NCBI RefSeq assembly: GCF_003991225.1
Contig: NZ_JTFC01000022.1
Coordinates: forward strand, 1-40,689
Source of the DNA: Candidatus Kurthia intestinigallinarum
Lineage (GTDB): Bacteria; Bacillota; Bacilli; Bacillales_A; Planococcaceae
DNA: 40,689 bases
Reading direction: 5' to 3'
Part shown: piece by piece, positions 9,318 to 39,897 of the stretch
Layout of the letters: each line of letters opens with the position of its first letter
How positions within the stretch are numbered: position 1 is the first letter of the stretch
Program-made: the position numbers and the translations under genes
Notes under the pieces: model-generated
Databases searched by the model: none
Seen by the model: the letters and a program-made list of their open reading frames with translations, nothing else
What the model was told of the DNA's origin: nothing

Positions 9318-9361
9318 TATATTATATATATATTTAGTATTTAAAAAAGAAATAATAGTAG
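9318..9361. other. oriC unwinding element with DnaA-trio repeat
   Basis: The segment 9318-9346 is almost pure A/T (TATA-type repeats). It is bordered by six 3-base steps at 9344-9361: AAA, AAG, AAA, TAA, TAG, TAG on the plus strand. Read 3' to 5' these are GAT, GAT, AAT, AAA, GAA, AAA, which fit the DnaA-trio motif known from Bacillus origins. A short G/C stretch and two DnaA boxes (9366-9383) follow directly. This is the order box, GC spacer, trio, AT-rich DNA seen in B. subtilis between dnaA and dnaN, so I take this as the site where DnaA opens the duplex. Confidence 0.85.
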
Positions 9362-9365
9362 GGCC

Positions 9366-9467
9366 TGTGGATACTGTGGATAAGTGCCTTCAAGCACTGG
9401 TATATCAACAATCCACCTGTGGATAAACTGTGGATAACTCTGTGGATAACTTAGTGACTTATCCACA
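9366..9467. promoter_or_regulatory. oriC: oriC DnaA-box cluster between dnaA and dnaN
   Basis: I find five exact boxes: TGTGGATAA at 9375-9383, 9418-9426, 9429-9437 and 9441-9449, and TTATCCACA at 9459-9467. A one-mismatch box lies at 9366-9374. Three boxes follow one another within 32 bases, with start-to-start distances of 11 and 12 bases. Together with the trio element on the left this forms the second half of a bipartite origin. Confidence 0.95.
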
Positions 9468-10910: not shown

Positions 10911-11204
10911 TTATCCACACTATCCACAAGCAAAAAAAAAACTATCCACACCCTGTGGATGAAAGTTATCCACAGCCTGTGGATAGTGTGGATAAGTTTT
11001 GTATATAAAAAGTTATCCACAAGGTTATGCACAGATAGCATACCAATAAATCGTTATTAAATCAATAGTTTGAAGTACTTATCCACAGAATGTATATTTA
11101 TACACAGGCAAGTTATGCACACCCTGTGGATTTGTGGATAACCTGTGGATAAGTGCTGTGTATAACTTTTTTACTGAAAAATATTATCCACAGAGTTATC
11201 CACT
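10911..11204. promoter_or_regulatory. oriC: oriC DnaA-box cluster upstream of dnaA
   Basis: Eight exact boxes lie at 10911-10919, 10966-10974, 10987-10995, 11013-11021, 11079-11087, 11133-11141, 11144-11152 and 11184-11192. About ten near-matches are interspersed, for example 10920-10928, 10942-10950, 10978-10986, 11025-11033, 11098-11106, 11113-11121, 11157-11165 and 11196-11204. They occur in both orientations. The region fills the 553-base gap between dnaA and rpmH and corresponds to the upstream half of the B. subtilis origin, where it also controls dnaA transcription. I see no coding sequence in it. Confidence 0.95.
11037..11065 (-). promoter_or_regulatory. Candidate dnaA promoter
   Basis: On the minus strand TTGATT (11060-11065), 17 bases and TATGCT (11037-11042) stand about 200 bases upstream of the dnaA start. 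DnaA boxes lie on both sides of it, at 11025-11033 and 11079-11087. This is the best-spaced candidate I see, but the hexamers are imperfect. Confidence 0.4.
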
Positions 11205-11300
11205 GTTCTTGTGGAAAAGTGAGACGGAATGTGACTAACTTTACCACAGAAAATAATGCATTGCACTCCCCTATTTTCAGAAACATTTTAATAAACAAAC

Positions 11301-11693: not shown

Positions 11694-12074
11694 ATGAAAA
11701 AAGAACGCAGAGTGAAGAAAAACGGCGATTTCCAAAAGGTGTTTAAAAAAGGGAAATCATTCGCTAACCGTCAATTTGTTGTTTACTGTTTGGAAAAGCC
11801 ACAGCAAACAGAATTTCGCATCGGGCTGTCAGTGAATAAAAAGCTAGGCAATGCCGTAGTGCGTAACCAAATCAAACGCCATATCCGTCAAGCGTTCCAT
11901 GAACTGGATCAAGAATTGGCCCAGTCCATGGATTATGTCATTATCGCCAGAAAACCGGCGGCCACTATGGACTTTTTCGACACAAAGAAAAGTCTGGAAC
12001 ATGTATTAAAAGTTGCGAAAGTTTTAAAAAGAACGGGTAGAGCAAAACACGTAAACCATGCTAAAATAAATTAA
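11694..12074 (+). CDS. rnpA: Ribonuclease P protein component
   Basis: RnpA is the protein subunit of RNase P, which with the catalytic RNA removes 5' leaders from tRNA precursors. It has 126 residues. The blocks [45 protein letters not shown] (the RNR motif region) and [10 protein letters not shown] are diagnostic. I chose the ATG at 11694, six bases after AGGTG, because it gives the usual N-terminus and length; the reading frame stays open for another 42 codons upstream. In Bacillus the next gene would be the YidC-type insertase spoIIIJ, which is absent here. Confidence 0.97.
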
Positions 12075-12087
12075 GATTTTCCCACAA

Positions 12088-12487
12088 AGTGGATAACTTT
12101 GTGGATAACTGGATGATGACCTGGAATTTAGGGGGGCTTTAACATGAAACAAGCAACTCAAATCGGCAAGACTGTGGATGAGGCAATCGACTTGGCGCTT
12201 AAAGAATTAAATTTAAGTTATGCACAGGTGGATATCTCAATCCTGCAACAACCGAAAAAAGGTTTTTTAGGACTTGGCGCGAAAAAAGCGCGTGTACTTG
12301 TCACTGAAAAAGAGTTATCCCCTACCCCAACTGTGGACAAACCACAGGATGTTGTGGAGAGTGTGGATAACCAGGCCGACATATCCACAGATATTGTGGA
12401 TACAGTGGATAACTCAGTGGATAATGTGGATAACACTTCAGAAAAGTCTGAAAGTTTTCCACAACCAGTGGATAACTCGGTGGATAA
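12088..12487. repeat. DnaA-box-like cluster in the jag leader and coding sequence
   Basis: Exact TGTGGATAA occurs at 12100-12108, 12362-12370 and 12425-12433. One-mismatch forms occur at 12088-12096, 12218-12226 (TTATGCACA), 12332-12340, 12381-12389, 12395-12403, 12404-12412, 12416-12424, 12467-12475 and 12479-12487. From 12362 on, most plus-strand copies share the reading frame and the codons GTG GAT AAC, giving Val-Asp-Asn six times in the Jag linker. Whether DnaA binds here is not known. Confidence 0.75.
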
Positions 12488-12995
12488 CTCACAACCAGCG
12501 CCAGAAATTATCGAAAAAACGCCAAAGCGCCGCGATAATTCTAAAACAATTGCTGCAGTACAAGAGTACTTATACACAGTAGCTGCTGGTATGGGCATCG
12601 ATGATTTGACGATGGATGTGGAAGAAAAAAAAGGCAAACTGTTGTTAATTAATTTGAAAAGCGAAAAAGCAGCTCTATTAATTGGCAAGCGTGGACAAAC
12701 ATTAAATTCTTTACAACAATTAACGCAATTAGTCATTTATAAACACACAAATCATTTTCTTATGGTAGAATTGGATGTGGAAAATTATCGTAATCGCCGC
12801 GAAGAATCACTTGTTGATTTTGCGAATAATATGGCGGATAAAGCAGTGCGTACGCGCAAGGCAGTCGTGCTTGAACCTATGCCATCGGCGGAGCGAAAAG
12901 TCGTCCATCATGCGTTGTCAAAACGTTTGGACGTTGATACATTTTCAGAAGGCGAAAATAATCGCCGTCACTTAGTGATCGAACCAGTTTTATAA
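12144..12995 (+). CDS. jag: Jag/KhpB RNA-binding protein with a VDN-repeat linker
   Basis: Jag (KhpB/EloR) is a cytoplasmic RNA-binding protein that in Gram-positives works with KhpA and influences cell elongation; in Bacillus it is named SpoIIIJ-associated. It has 283 residues. The Jag-N domain covers 1-50 (QPKKGFLGLGAKKARV). An acidic low-complexity linker covers about 60-130. A KH domain has GKRG at 181-184, and an R3H domain has R251-x3-H255. The linker carries six VDN triplets (74-76, 88-90, 92-94, 95-97, 109-111, 113-115) encoded by DnaA-box-like DNA. The start ATG follows AGGGGGG. Its normal neighbour yidC/spoIIIJ is missing: only 69 bases separate rnpA from jag. Confidence 0.95.
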   Translation: MKQATQIGKTVDEAIDLALKELNLSYAQVDISILQQPKKGFLGLGAKKARVLVTEKELSPTPTVDKPQDVVESVDNQADISTDIVDTVDNSVDNVDNTSEKSESFPQPVDNSVDNSQPAPEIIEKTPKRRDNSKTIAAVQEYLYTVAAGMGIDDLTMDVEEKKGKLLLINLKSEKAALLIGKRGQTLNSLQQLTQLVIYKHTNHFLMVELDVENYRNRREESLVDFANNMADKAVRTRKAVVLEPMPSAERKVVHHALSKRLDVDTFSEGENNRRHLVIEPVL

Positions 12996-13017
12996 CGTTT
13001 AATAAGGATTGTGAAAG

Positions 13018-13047
13018 AGTCCTTCTCATATTTTTGAGAAGGGCTTT
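13018..13047 (+). terminator. Terminator after jag
   Basis: The 11-base stem AGTCCTTCTCA/TGAGAAGGGCT (one G-U pair, loop TATTTT-like) is followed by TTTATTATT. It ends the rnpA-jag transcript. Confidence 0.75.
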
Positions 13048-13108
13048 TATTATTGTATGGAGGAAAATTTTTCCTTCAAACAGCTCGCTATAACGTGAGC
13101 GTAGAATA

Positions 13109-13117: not shown

Positions 13118-13144
13118 CAACAGTTAGGAAATTACTTATTCACA

Positions 13145-13153
13145 TGTGGATAA
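13145..13153. promoter_or_regulatory. DnaA box upstream of mnmE
   Basis: An exact TGTGGATAA ends 8 bases before the AGGAGGG ribosome site of mnmE. Its place in the 5' leader could allow DnaA to affect mnmE transcription; this is inference from position. Confidence 0.6.
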
Positions 13154-16480: not shown

Positions 16481-16517
16481 AAAATAATCCACAGCCTGTG
16501 GATTATTTTGTGGATAA
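16481..16517. promoter_or_regulatory. Perfect palindrome plus DnaA box before rsmG
   Basis: AAAATAATCCACAG (16481-16494) and CTGTGGATTATTTT (16496-16509) are perfect inverse complements around one C, and contain DnaA-like half-sites. An exact TGTGGATAA follows at 16509-16517, overlapping the last base, and the rsmG ribosome site comes next. As RNA it would form a stem ending in UUUU and might weakly terminate mnmG. As DNA it could bind DnaA. Another exact box lies at 16578-16586, inside rsmG. Confidence 0.6.
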
Positions 16518-16529
16518 AAGGAGAAAACG

Positions 16530-17246
16530 ATGAACGAACAGCAATTTTTCGATGCATTAAAAGAAAAAGGCATTGAGTTATCCACAGAACAACTTCAGCA
16601 GTTTAAAACATATTTCGAAACATTAGTAGAATGGAACGAAAAAATGAATCTAACTGCTATCACTGATTTAGAATCGGTTTATTTAAAACACTTTTATGAT
16701 TCAATCAGCGCAGCATTCTACGTTGATTTCGCAAAAGTAACGACTCTTTGTGACGTTGGCGCTGGCGCTGGCTTCCCAAGTATCCCAATTAAAATTTGTT
16801 TCCCACATCTTCACATCACGATTGTGGATTCATTAAATAAACGTATCCAGTTCCTCAATCACCTAAGCAAAGAGCTAGGCTTATCTCATGTGAATTTTGT
16901 GCATTCACGCGCTGAAGATTTCGGACGTAATCCACAATACCGCGAGCAATTTGACTTAGTGACAGCACGTGCCGTTGCGCGTATGTCTGTGCTATCAGAG
17001 CTTTGTGTACCACTTGTCAAAGAAGGCGGCCAATTTGTCGCAATGAAAGCTGCTAGTGGCGAAGATGAAGTGAAGGATGCGAAAAAAGCATTAACAACAC
17101 TTGGTGTAAAACTTGATGAAGAGCATCATTTCTTATTACCAGTAGAAGAAAGTGATCGTGTGATTTTCACGTTTAATAAAGTGAAAGCGACACCGAAAAA
17201 GTACCCTCGTAAACCGGGTGTACCGAATAAATCACCTATTCAATAA
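16530..17246 (+). CDS. rsmG: 16S rRNA m7G527 methyltransferase RsmG
   Basis: RsmG (GidB) methylates N7 of G527 in the 530 loop of 16S rRNA; its loss gives low-level streptomycin resistance in several bacteria. The 238-residue protein has the SAM-binding motif [14 protein letters not shown] at 73-86 and the downstream [15 protein letters not shown] block typical of the family. The basic tail ([15 protein letters not shown]) is also typical. AAAGGAG precedes the ATG at 16530. It is the third gene of the mnmE-mnmG-rsmG run and is followed by a strong terminator. Confidence 0.97.
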
Positions 17247-38293: not shown

Positions 38294-39565
38294 ATGGGGT
38301 ATTACGACCAAGATCCAAATCAAGCGCCAAGACGCAGTAAAGGAGGCAGTAAGGCAGGCTATTTCTTTACAGGGCTTATTGGTGTACTCATCGGCGCATT
38401 ACTTGTGTGGCTGATTATTCCAAATGTGATGAATACGACAAATAATGTAGCGAGCAATTCAGAAACACAAGTTCAAACAACAGAGCCCGTTCAACTTTCA
38501 ACGGACGTTTCAACGGATACAACGAAGGTTGTCGAAAAGGTTGATAGCGCGGTTGTTGGCGTTGTAAATATGCAAAAAACACAGCAGGACCTATGGGGCT
38601 CATCACCATTCGGTGGTAGCCAACAAGGTGGTACAACACAGGATAATAACGAATCATCCATTACAGAAGAAGCGGGCACAGGCTCAGGCGTTATCTATAA
38701 AAAAGATGGCGATAAAGCATATGTTGTTACAAATAATCACGTTGTCGAAGACGCAGATGAATTAGAAGTAAAATTAGCAGACGGCACAAAGGTCAAGGCT
38801 AAATTAGTCGGTACTGATATTTGGACAGACTTAGCTGTTATTTCGATTCCAAGTAAGGATGTAAAAGCTGTCGCAACATTTGGTGACTCATCAAAACTGA
38901 AAAAAGGTGAATCGGTTATCGCGATTGGGAACCCACTTGGCCTTGATTACTACGGCTCTGTGACAACAGGTGTTATCTCAGGCTTAAACCGTTCTGTACC
39001 GGTTGATTTAAATTCTGACGGCACAGCAGACTGGAATGCCGATGTTCTTCAAACAGATGCGGCCATTAACCCAGGGAACTCAGGCGGCGCGCTAATTAAT
39101 ATGGCAGGCCAAGTCATCGGTATTAACTCAATGAAAATCTCAAATACACAAGAATCTGTAGAAGGTATCGGCTTTGCGATTCCAAGTGATACAGCCGTAC
39201 CAATTATCAATGAGCTTGAGAAAAATGGTAAAGTGGAACGTCCATCGATGGGGATCACATTAGCAGATCTAACAGATGTCCCTTCTTACTACCAACAAGG
39301 ACAATTAAAATTACCATCAGATATTACAAAAGGTGTCGTTATTTCAGGTGTTCAAAGTGGCACAGCTGCCGCAAAAGCGGGTCTTGAAAAATATGATGTC
39401 ATCGTCGAAATTGATGGTCAAAAAATAGACGATGCGATTGGTCTTCGCAAAATTTTATACAACGATAAAAAAGTCGGCGATGAAATGAAAGTGAAGGCAT
39501 ATCGTAACGGGGAAATAATTAATAAAACATTAACACTCACTGGCTCATTGAGCGAAAGTAAGTAA
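38294..39565 (+). CDS. htrC: HtrA-type membrane serine protease
   Basis: A DegP/HtrA family protease for misfolded surface proteins, often found next to the wal operon. It has 423 residues. A cytoplasmic, charged tip is followed by one membrane anchor (about 22-43) and a low-complexity linker (46-125). The trypsin-like domain has the triad H149 (VTNNHVV), D179 (TDLAVI) and S263 (NPGNSGGAL). A PDZ domain covers about 315-415 (GVVISGVQSGTAAAKAGLEKYDVI). AGGAGGT precedes the ATG. Its promoter is not obvious to me. Confidence 0.95.
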   Translation: MGYYDQDPNQAPRRSKGGSKAGYFFTGLIGVLIGALLVWLIIPNVMNTTNNVASNSETQVQTTEPVQLSTDVSTDTTKVVEKVDSAVVGVVNMQKTQQDLWGSSPFGGSQQGGTTQDNNESSITEEAGTGSGVIYKKDGDKAYVVTNNHVVEDADELEVKLADGTKVKAKLVGTDIWTDLAVISIPSKDVKAVATFGDSSKLKKGESVIAIGNPLGLDYYGSVTTGVISGLNRSVPVDLNSDGTADWNADVLQTDAAINPGNSGGALINMAGQVIGINSMKISNTQESVEGIGFAIPSDTAVPIINELEKNGKVERPSMGITLADLTDVPSYYQQGQLKLPSDITKGVVISGVQSGTAAAKAGLEKYDVIVEIDGQKIDDAIGLRKILYNDKKVGDEMKVKAYRNGEIINKTLTLTGSLSESK

Positions 39566-39574
39566 TCCACAAGA

Positions 39575-39583
39575 TGTGGATAA
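39575..39583. promoter_or_regulatory. DnaA box after htrC
   Basis: An exact TGTGGATAA lies 10 bases after the htrC stop and just before its terminator, about 30 kb from the unwinding element. A TCCACA half-site precedes it in inverted orientation. Confidence 0.5.
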
Positions 39584-39586
39584 CTC

Positions 39587-39629
39587 AGTGGATAGAAAAG
39601 TCGTACAATGCTTTTCTATCCACTTTTTG
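39587..39629 (+). terminator. Terminator after htrC
   Basis: AGTGGATAGAAAAG (39587-39600) and CTTTTCTATCCACT (39611-39624) are a perfect 14-base stem with a 10-base loop, followed by TTTT. Confidence 0.92.
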
Positions 39630-39678
39630 TTTGTTAAAATGGACATAACAACGGATAGACGTGAAAGGACGTAATTAA

Positions 39679-39843
39679 ATGAAAACATATAGCTGTGAGG
39701 ACCACGTAGGCCACGCGCTTGACATGTTTGTAGCGAATGAGAAAGATTTTCCAATTATGGATAAACTCGAAGAAAACGACGAAGAAACGCAAAAATGCGC
39801 GTATTGTGACGCGAAAGCAACATATATTGTGGCGAACAAATGA
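39679..39843 (+). CDS. yyzF: CxxH/CxxC small protein (YyzF-like)
   Basis: This 54-residue protein begins MKTYSCEDHVGHALDMFVAN. C6-x2-H9 and C40-x2-C43 (KCAYCDAKATYIV) together could hold one zinc ion. It matches the CxxH/CxxC protein family found between the htrA-type gene and rlmH in Bacillales. The function is unknown. GAAAGGACG precedes the ATG. The start and end are clear from the sequence, although the gene is very short. Confidence 0.9.
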   Translation: MKTYSCEDHVGHALDMFVANEKDFPIMDKLEENDEETQKCAYCDAKATYIVANK

Positions 39844-39867
39844 GCCCCTACAATATCTAGTGTAGCC

Positions 39868-39897
39868 TGTGGATAACTTTCAGAATTCTGTGGATAA
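39868..39897. promoter_or_regulatory. Two DnaA boxes upstream of rlmH
   Basis: Exact TGTGGATAA copies at 39868-39876 and 39889-39897 are 21 bases apart, in the same orientation and on the same DNA face. They lie 40 bases before the rlmH start. Confidence 0.6.

Follow-up and report, generated by a model that had tools for sequence, protein, structure and literature searches.

A candidate DnaA-box cluster within the disordered-linker coding sequence of jag in Kurthia

The window analyzed here, a stretch of 40,689 nucleotides from Candidatus Kurthia intestinigallinarum (contig NZ_JTFC01000022.1), has its densest cluster of DnaA boxes after the dnaA-rpmH origin region inside a gene: ten boxes lie in the DNA for the linker of Jag. 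The linker DNA carries modules of the origin type, in both orientations and often with the 9- or 12-bp spacing of the noncoding clusters, and in three Kurthia species its boxes are more numerous and better preserved than the protein requires. We lean towards reading it as an origin-proximal DnaA-box cluster in coding DNA, of the titrating or regulating kind found in Bacillus subtilis. Judged from the sequences, selection on the DNA is favored over slippage alone, and the array would most simply be an enlargement of the origin-proximal box set into coding DNA. The broader proposition is that Planococcaceae carry DnaA-box clusters in coding sequences (in one Kurthia clade the linker of jag, in several genera a histidine kinase), with replication-control DNA dictating part of a protein and VDN-S-VDN being a translated origin module; we regard it as evenly balanced between true and false.

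The box array and its surroundings

The genes run in the order dnaN, dnaA, rpmH, rnpA, jag, mnmE, mnmG, and rsmG. Pfam was the basis for rnpA, jag, mnmE, and rsmG, and DnaA was assigned by alignment to PDB 8btg; dnaN, rpmH, and mnmG are presumed identities, assigned by reading the open reading frames (ORFs). The window's genome is Kurthia-like. When Jag is compared, its closest named relatives are K. huakuii (L014), K. massiliensis (L013), and K. senegalensis (L015), with tblastn identities of 89%, 80%, and 59%, respectively. Between rnpA and jag (window 12074-12144), yidC/spoIIIJ is absent in seven of eight genus genomes and present in G001; the window's genome retains one PF02096 member at another locus (C183:29025-29582).

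The sequence-only reading had called the Jag linker disordered, and the AlphaFold2 model, made from an alignment of only four sequences, agrees: residues 59 to 127 lack secondary structure and have pLDDT values under 50. On this model, a need of the protein for these particular codons is not expected.

Table 1 Features of jag and DnaA-box clusters in the window
Feature	Position	Strand	Basis or remark
GC-poor stretch beside dnaA-dnaN boxes, candidate unwinding element	9321..9360		7% GC over 40 bp
dnaA-dnaN intergenic DnaA-box cluster (other oriC half)	9366..9467		box scan
dnaA-rpmH intergenic DnaA-box cluster (oriC half)	10911..11218		18 boxes in 300-bp count
Two-box module in rnpA-jag leader	12088..12108	-	one-mismatch box at 12088; exact box at 12100-12108
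jag (khpB) CDS	12144..12995	+	283 aa; Jag_N, KH, and R3H domains; Pfam PF14804, PF13083, and PF01424 above cutoffs
DNA for Jag disordered linker, residues 59-127	12318..12524	+	AlphaFold2
Linker DnaA-box array	12332..12487	8 minus, 2 plus	2 exact, 8 one-mismatch
Exact box TTATCCACA	12362..12370	-	exact in K. massiliensis too
Inverted box pair	12381..12403	both	plus-strand box encodes STD with rare Ser codon TCC
Box-CTC-box module encoding VDN-S-VDN	12404..12424	-	motif search
Exact box TTATCCACA	12425..12433	-	letter match
Three-box module TTTTCCACA / AGTGGATAA / GGTGGATAA	12455..12487	both	resembles 11184-11218 of dnaA-rpmH origin region
Inverted box pair between jag and mnmE	13136..13153	both	place of B. 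subtilis trmE DnaA-binding region
Small DnaA-box cluster, mnmG to rsmG, entering rsmG start	16485..16586		box scan and Pfam
DnaA boxes upstream of rlmH	39563..39897		has box-CTC-box module as in oriC and jag

We scored as a box any exact or one-mismatch copy of TTATCCACA, and counts combine both kinds and both strands. The positions 12218-12487, which had been read as linker throughout with two exact and about eight one-mismatch boxes, contain the two exact and nine one-mismatch boxes. Eight of the nine are in the linker; the ninth, at 12218 (TTATGCACA, which fits TTATNCACA), belongs to the Jag N-terminal domain, since the linker starts only at 12318. The six VDN triplets noted earlier are there, five written GTGGATAAC and one, at 12417, GTGGATAAT, and so is the exact box in the jag leader (Table 1). 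The description of the array as a Val-Asp-Asn repeat holds for the VDN boxes but not for the two plus-strand boxes at 12381 and 12455, which encode STD and FPQ. Nearness to the origin also stands, with a correction: the linker boxes begin and end 1.1 to 1.3 kb, not 1.3 to 1.6 kb, beyond the end of the dnaA-rpmH cluster at 11218. Exact boxes make up 2 of the 10 linker boxes in the window's genome, 3 of 9 in K. huakuii, and 1 of 11 in K. massiliensis, and in the window's genome 4 of the 10 have a mismatch at position 9. The inverted pair at 12381 keeps identical spacing in K. huakuii and K. massiliensis. Between boxes, the EKSES codons (12441-12455), box-free except for the last base, are identical at every base in the three species.

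The likeness to the origin lies mainly in modules. A two-box module, GTGGATAA-NTC-N-GTGGATA, occurs five times in the genome: between dnaA and dnaN, between dnaA and rpmH, twice in jag, and upstream of rlmH. There are four copies in K. huakuii and three in K. massiliensis. It was present in 10 of 121 family genomes searched (7 of 113 outside the genus), with 0 for the control. In jag it translates as VDN-S-VDN, which the linker is proposed to tolerate because it is disordered. Among box spacings of at most 30 bp, 12 bp (10 cases) and 9 bp (4) are the commonest in noncoding DNA of the window, and in coding DNA 12 bp occurs four times (three in jag) and 9 bp twice (both in jag), which is weak evidence by itself because the reading frame also gives multiples of three. 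In a greedy 300-bp count over 36 to 41 kb around the origin, jag ranked second in the window's genome, K. huakuii, and K. massiliensis with 11, 11, and 12 boxes, the dnaA-rpmH region having 18, 18, and 17 and the dnaA-dnaN region 6, 6, and 7.

With such modules and similar spacing 1.1 to 1.3 kb away, the array might belong to the origin itself as one more box cluster, the third, that helps unwinding, and a stretch of 22% GC over 60 bp (12701-12760) lies about 0.2 kb past it, in the KH-domain coding part of jag. The array itself contains no GC-poor dip, all 60-bp windows starting from 12160 to 12580 having at least 37% GC, and the dip beyond it is weaker than the one of 7% (40 bp) that adjoins the dnaA-dnaN boxes, the usual place. 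An unwinding site in jag is unlikely for these reasons, and we consider membership in the origin proper very improbable; the earlier suggestion that the array could extend the origin finds little support.

Other clusters are given in Table 1. A box pair occupies the place between jag and mnmE in K. huakuii, K. massiliensis, and K. senegalensis as well. An exact box at 16578 is close to the start of the rsmG ORF. The boxes upstream of rlmH are about 27 kb from jag; we take the window's rlmH to be B. subtilis yydA, presumably a DnaA-binding place in that species.

Box numbers, codon choice, and conservation

The whole window contains 74 boxes, compared with 12.0 expected from shuffling. Intergenic DNA (5,890 bases) accounts for 39 of these and the ORFs (34,799 bases) for 35, of which 14 are in jag. 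When codons were randomized synonymously in the 32 mechanically called ORFs of the window, the jag coding sequence stood out, with 14 boxes against 3.3 expected (z 7.5); the next highest z was 2.0. For the linker, the same randomization gave 2.6 boxes against 10 observed in the window's genome, 2.3 against 9 in K. huakuii, and 2.9 against 11 in K. massiliensis, and the observed count was reached in 0 of 10,000 trials for each species. When the linker codons were instead shuffled among themselves, so that the excess of GTG was retained, 6.5, 4.7, and 6.7 boxes resulted, respectively (P of 0.0024, 0 of 5,000, and 0.0006). Exact boxes alone number 2 (P 0.04), 3 (P 0.002), and 1 (P 0.33) in the same order, a clear excess only in K. 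huakuii and not in the window's genome or K. massiliensis. Because they are few, the case for an excess rests on exact and one-mismatch boxes jointly. Chance was tested and set aside as the main explanation, as were slippage alone and origin extension.

Codon choice goes in the same direction. GTG serves for 9 of the 10 linker valines, against 227 of 911 in the window's ORFs. The serine of the plus-strand box at 12381 is TCC in all three species, a codon used for 25 of 655 serines in the window's ORFs. Genome-wide, 25 of the 80 exact boxes in 3.93 Mb are in this 40.7-kb contig. Tandem GTGGATA pairs with a gap of 1 to 8 bp number 13 in the genome; every one is on the contig, four of them in jag, and the reversed-pattern control gave none in the genome; of four inverted TATCCAC-GTGGATA pairs (gaps of 1 to 10), three are on the contig and one in jag.

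A neutral coding repeat would account for the array if VDN had spread by slippage with a coincidental likeness to boxes, or if an acidic linker were kept for the protein's sake. Repeat units do exist (4.6 copies of a 9-bp unit, matching at 73%, and 1.9 copies of a 12-bp unit), the linker is predicted to be disordered, and by eye many relatives have an acidic-looking linker in Jag. K. huakuii differs by seven array codons, as unequal exchange would produce, so slippage, which the earlier proposal set beside selection for DnaA binding, or unequal exchange had a share as well; one of the window genome's VDN triplets falls in this gap, and another is VDE in K. huakuii, with the DNA word broken. 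We rejected a simple coding tandem repeat, in which a single unit recurs head to tail in the same frame, as two boxes are inverted in other contexts and only the two repeat arrays just given were seen. Against the neutral account more generally stand the two opposite-strand boxes in other frames, the choice of GTG and TCC, box counts above those of synonymous or permuted codons, and a genome that elsewhere has no comparable tandem pairs.

The comparison between species adds to this. The sequence-only reading had looked to the codons of relatives, where a DNA word kept under shifting residues would favor selection and other codons would speak against it. Of the window genome's six VDN triplets, two are VDN and four VDK in K. 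massiliensis, and GTGGATAA is intact in three of the four Asn/Lys differences, the fourth being broken by a silent GAT/GAC difference; the word is kept for the most part while the residue changes. In K. huakuii and K. massiliensis every VD triplet has GTG and all but one have GAT, as selection would have it, although the lone VDN of the more distant relative G002 uses GTA and K. senegalensis lacks the repeat.

Silent divergence between the window's genome and K. massiliensis is about 35% outside the linker. Among same-residue codons with the third base in a box of the window's genome, 2 of 25 differ silently, versus 62 of 176 codons in the other domains (Fisher 0.005). The corresponding fractions are 2/22 and 63/177 for K. 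huakuii against K. massiliensis (p 0.014) and 2/23 and 29/189 for the window's genome against K. huakuii. Linker codons outside boxes are also rather low in silent change in some comparisons, as the neutral account would have it: 4 of 18 for the window's genome against K. massiliensis by the window genome's boxes, and 7 of 18 for K. huakuii against K. massiliensis by those of K. huakuii. With K. massiliensis's boxes as the reference, silent changes are 4/28 inside and 2/15 outside against the window's genome and 3/22 inside and 6/18 outside against K. huakuii. The third base of valine codons changed in 0 of 10 cases in the linker and 5 of 16 elsewhere between the window's genome and K. massiliensis.

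When all changes between these two are counted, 7 of 90 columns in the window genome's boxes differ, compared with 46 of 117 other linker columns (p 1.3e-7). With boxes defined by K. massiliensis, the fractions are 16/99 and 37/108 (p 0.004), and with boxes pooled over the three species they are 18/108 and 35/99 (p 0.0024). Against K. huakuii, the window's genome shows 3/72 and 23/129 by its own boxes (p 0.0045) and 9/90 and 17/111 by pooled boxes (p 0.3), so this comparison alone is weak. We also ran a forward null, 5,000 simulations with the protein and the silent rate held fixed. Starting from the window's genome or from K. huakuii, it predicted 5.1 or 5.2 boxes for K. massiliensis, where 11 are seen (0 of 5,000 and 0, respectively). 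For the window's genome it gave 5.4 boxes against 10 seen (8/5,000), and for K. huakuii 4.5 from K. massiliensis (15/5,000) and 6.4 from the window's genome (268/5,000) against 9 seen. With this conservation beyond the null, a neutral coding repeat appears improbable to us.

Marginally less probable still is a relic, origin DNA that an ancestral Kurthia copied into jag, that stayed open by chance, and that is now functionless. The module at 12455-12487 does resemble 11184-11218 (blastn, 88.6% over 35 columns), but since most of the likeness comes from the boxes, it does not prove copying from the origin. A weaker version in G002 and its absence from K. senegalensis would fit such a history; the slower change of box bases than of other linker bases among the window's genome, K. 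huakuii, and K. massiliensis would not.

Occurrence in relatives and boxes in a histidine kinase gene

Matches to jag were found in 199 of 200 family genomes; 134 loci were taken and 133 parsed (L078 was excluded, and L009 to L015, being repeats, were left out). The coding sequence is free of boxes in 103 of the 133 and has 12 to 14 in three, those of the window's genome, K. huakuii, and K. massiliensis. The remaining 130 all stay below that number, the highest being 6 in G002. There the linker reads HPQTVDNSVEK where the window has FPQPVDNSVDN, with three one-mismatch boxes and the CTC spacer, against 0.41 boxes expected at this place with the window's codon usage (10 of 5,000 reach three). 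Given this excess, a weak form of the array may predate the clade. K. senegalensis has a single one-mismatch box in the whole jag coding sequence and no VDN-type repeat, and no compensation by denser clusters elsewhere near its origin was seen; the tree is compatible with either branching order for K. massiliensis and K. senegalensis. In 60 of the 133 family loci, the 200 bp downstream of jag include an exact box. Outside the family, 57 loci from 117 class-level genomes with a jag match had at most 2 boxes, some of the ORF calls being too short to include the linker; an order-level search yielded the same family only. Our literature search, which subscription papers mostly escaped, found no title dealing with Kurthia replication or with DnaA boxes in the coding sequence of jag.

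Boxes also occur in the ATPase-domain coding sequence of a two-component histidine kinase gene (G000:C2:32949-34391; L142:1450-2895; matches L234 to L238 and L245 to L252). The window's genome has three exact boxes there in three frames (AFIHN, SYPQ, and KLST). Five further genus genomes with close matches (44 to 76% identity) have 2 to 5 exact boxes, and the YPQ and KLST boxes are conserved in position in all six; two other genus genomes have distant matches only (30%). The window's genome and K. senegalensis disagree at 2 of 27 bases within boxes and at 548 of 1,389 outside them, and silent differences are 2/9 and 126/252. Outside the genus, 47 family genomes had a match at 1e-90, and we looked at 24. 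Eight, from two other genera, have 5 to 9 boxes (1 or 2 exact), and the other 16 have 0 to 2. The synonymous null reached the observed number in 0 to 4 of 300 trials for those eight and in 13 to 92 of 300 for the six genus members, so the signal within the genus lies in exact, conserved boxes and not in their number.

Elsewhere in the genome, an intergenic site on contig C175 (L145:2599-2653) has three exact boxes, two of them as the inverted pair TTATCCACATGTGGATAA. This inverted core occurs once each in G004 and G005, off the origin contig.

Possible roles and comparison with known DnaA-box clusters

The Kurthia DnaA aligns to PDB 8btg, which we take to be B. subtilis DnaA, over residues 5 to 449 of 454. 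Its GRDHTTV motif, presumably in the helix-turn-helix that reads the box, is unchanged. DnaA would bind the linker array cooperatively, 1.1 to 1.3 kb from the dnaA-rpmH cluster. The array would be copied very soon after initiation, and the nearby DnaA-binding capacity would then double. Doubled capacity would leave less free DnaA, a titration of the kind proposed for B. subtilis DnaA-box clusters. DnaA on the array may also dampen transcription through jag.

Were transcription the actual task, the array would be a selected DnaA-binding cluster that controls or blocks the transcription of the jag unit, and of mnmE, in place of titration. Boxes lie on both sides of jag, in the leader and between jag and mnmE, and mnmE may have its own promoter near the box pair, since a terminator-like hairpin (13015-13048) separates it from jag. 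In B. subtilis, the available text of one study indicates that DnaA appears to repress trmE-noc (PMC4447404). The linker boxes, though, are deep in the gene and distant from any supported promoter, promoter-like sites being near chance (6 found versus 4.0, sd 2.1, in shuffles), and the mnmE-proximal pair could suffice for repression. We consider transcription control unlikely as the main task.

If the titrating or regulating cluster is real, it would give a clear example from nature of a protein-coding stretch whose bases double as a dense replication-control element, the disordered linker being tolerant ground, and initiator titration would become testable through synonymous recoding alone. 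Linker sequences may then reflect selection at the level of DNA rather than protein.

Among the closest known systems are the oriC-proximal clusters of B. subtilis, which resemble those of Kurthia in having boxes clustered near the origin but outside oriC, and at the jag-mnmE and rlmH-upstream places. As far as the accessible parts of the sources go, B. subtilis DnaA binds upstream of yydA and, strongly in vitro, upstream of trmE and downstream of jag (fifth listed, Kd of 0.33 uM for the ATP form) (PMC4447404), and the loss of six non-origin clusters leads to early initiation (PMC5295017, PMC13220808). The eight strongest B. subtilis regions are described there as lying between genes, one spanning the small gene yyzF (PMC4447404). 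What sets the window's genome apart is that the main extra cluster is in coding DNA, some 0.65 kb upstream of the pair between jag and mnmE, and that its modules determine protein sequence. With 11 boxes per 300 bp, a place near oriC, and, in three species, boxes more numerous and better preserved than chance or coding need would give (less clearly between the window's genome and K. huakuii alone), the jag array resembles a cluster of the B. subtilis type, except that its site is not intergenic; an intergenic location is perhaps common to the strong known examples without being defining.

DnaA sites inside genes, as in Kurthia jag, are also reported for B. subtilis (codV, rplB, and others), where they were bound in vitro (PMC4447404, in part). 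They have 2 to 5 sites per 300 bp and an ATP-form Kd of at least 1.1 uM according to the same partial text, compared with 11 boxes per 300 bp in jag; the definitions of a site differ, so the densities are only roughly comparable. Escherichia coli datA, like the jag array on our reading, is a DnaA-box locus outside oriC, and excerpts of PMC5295017 state that it lowers active DnaA and works with IHF, a protein that a 2026 review, in its available portion, lists among those absent from B. subtilis (PMC13220808). Unlike datA, which is called noncoding in the accessible text of PMC4585315, the jag array is coding DNA.
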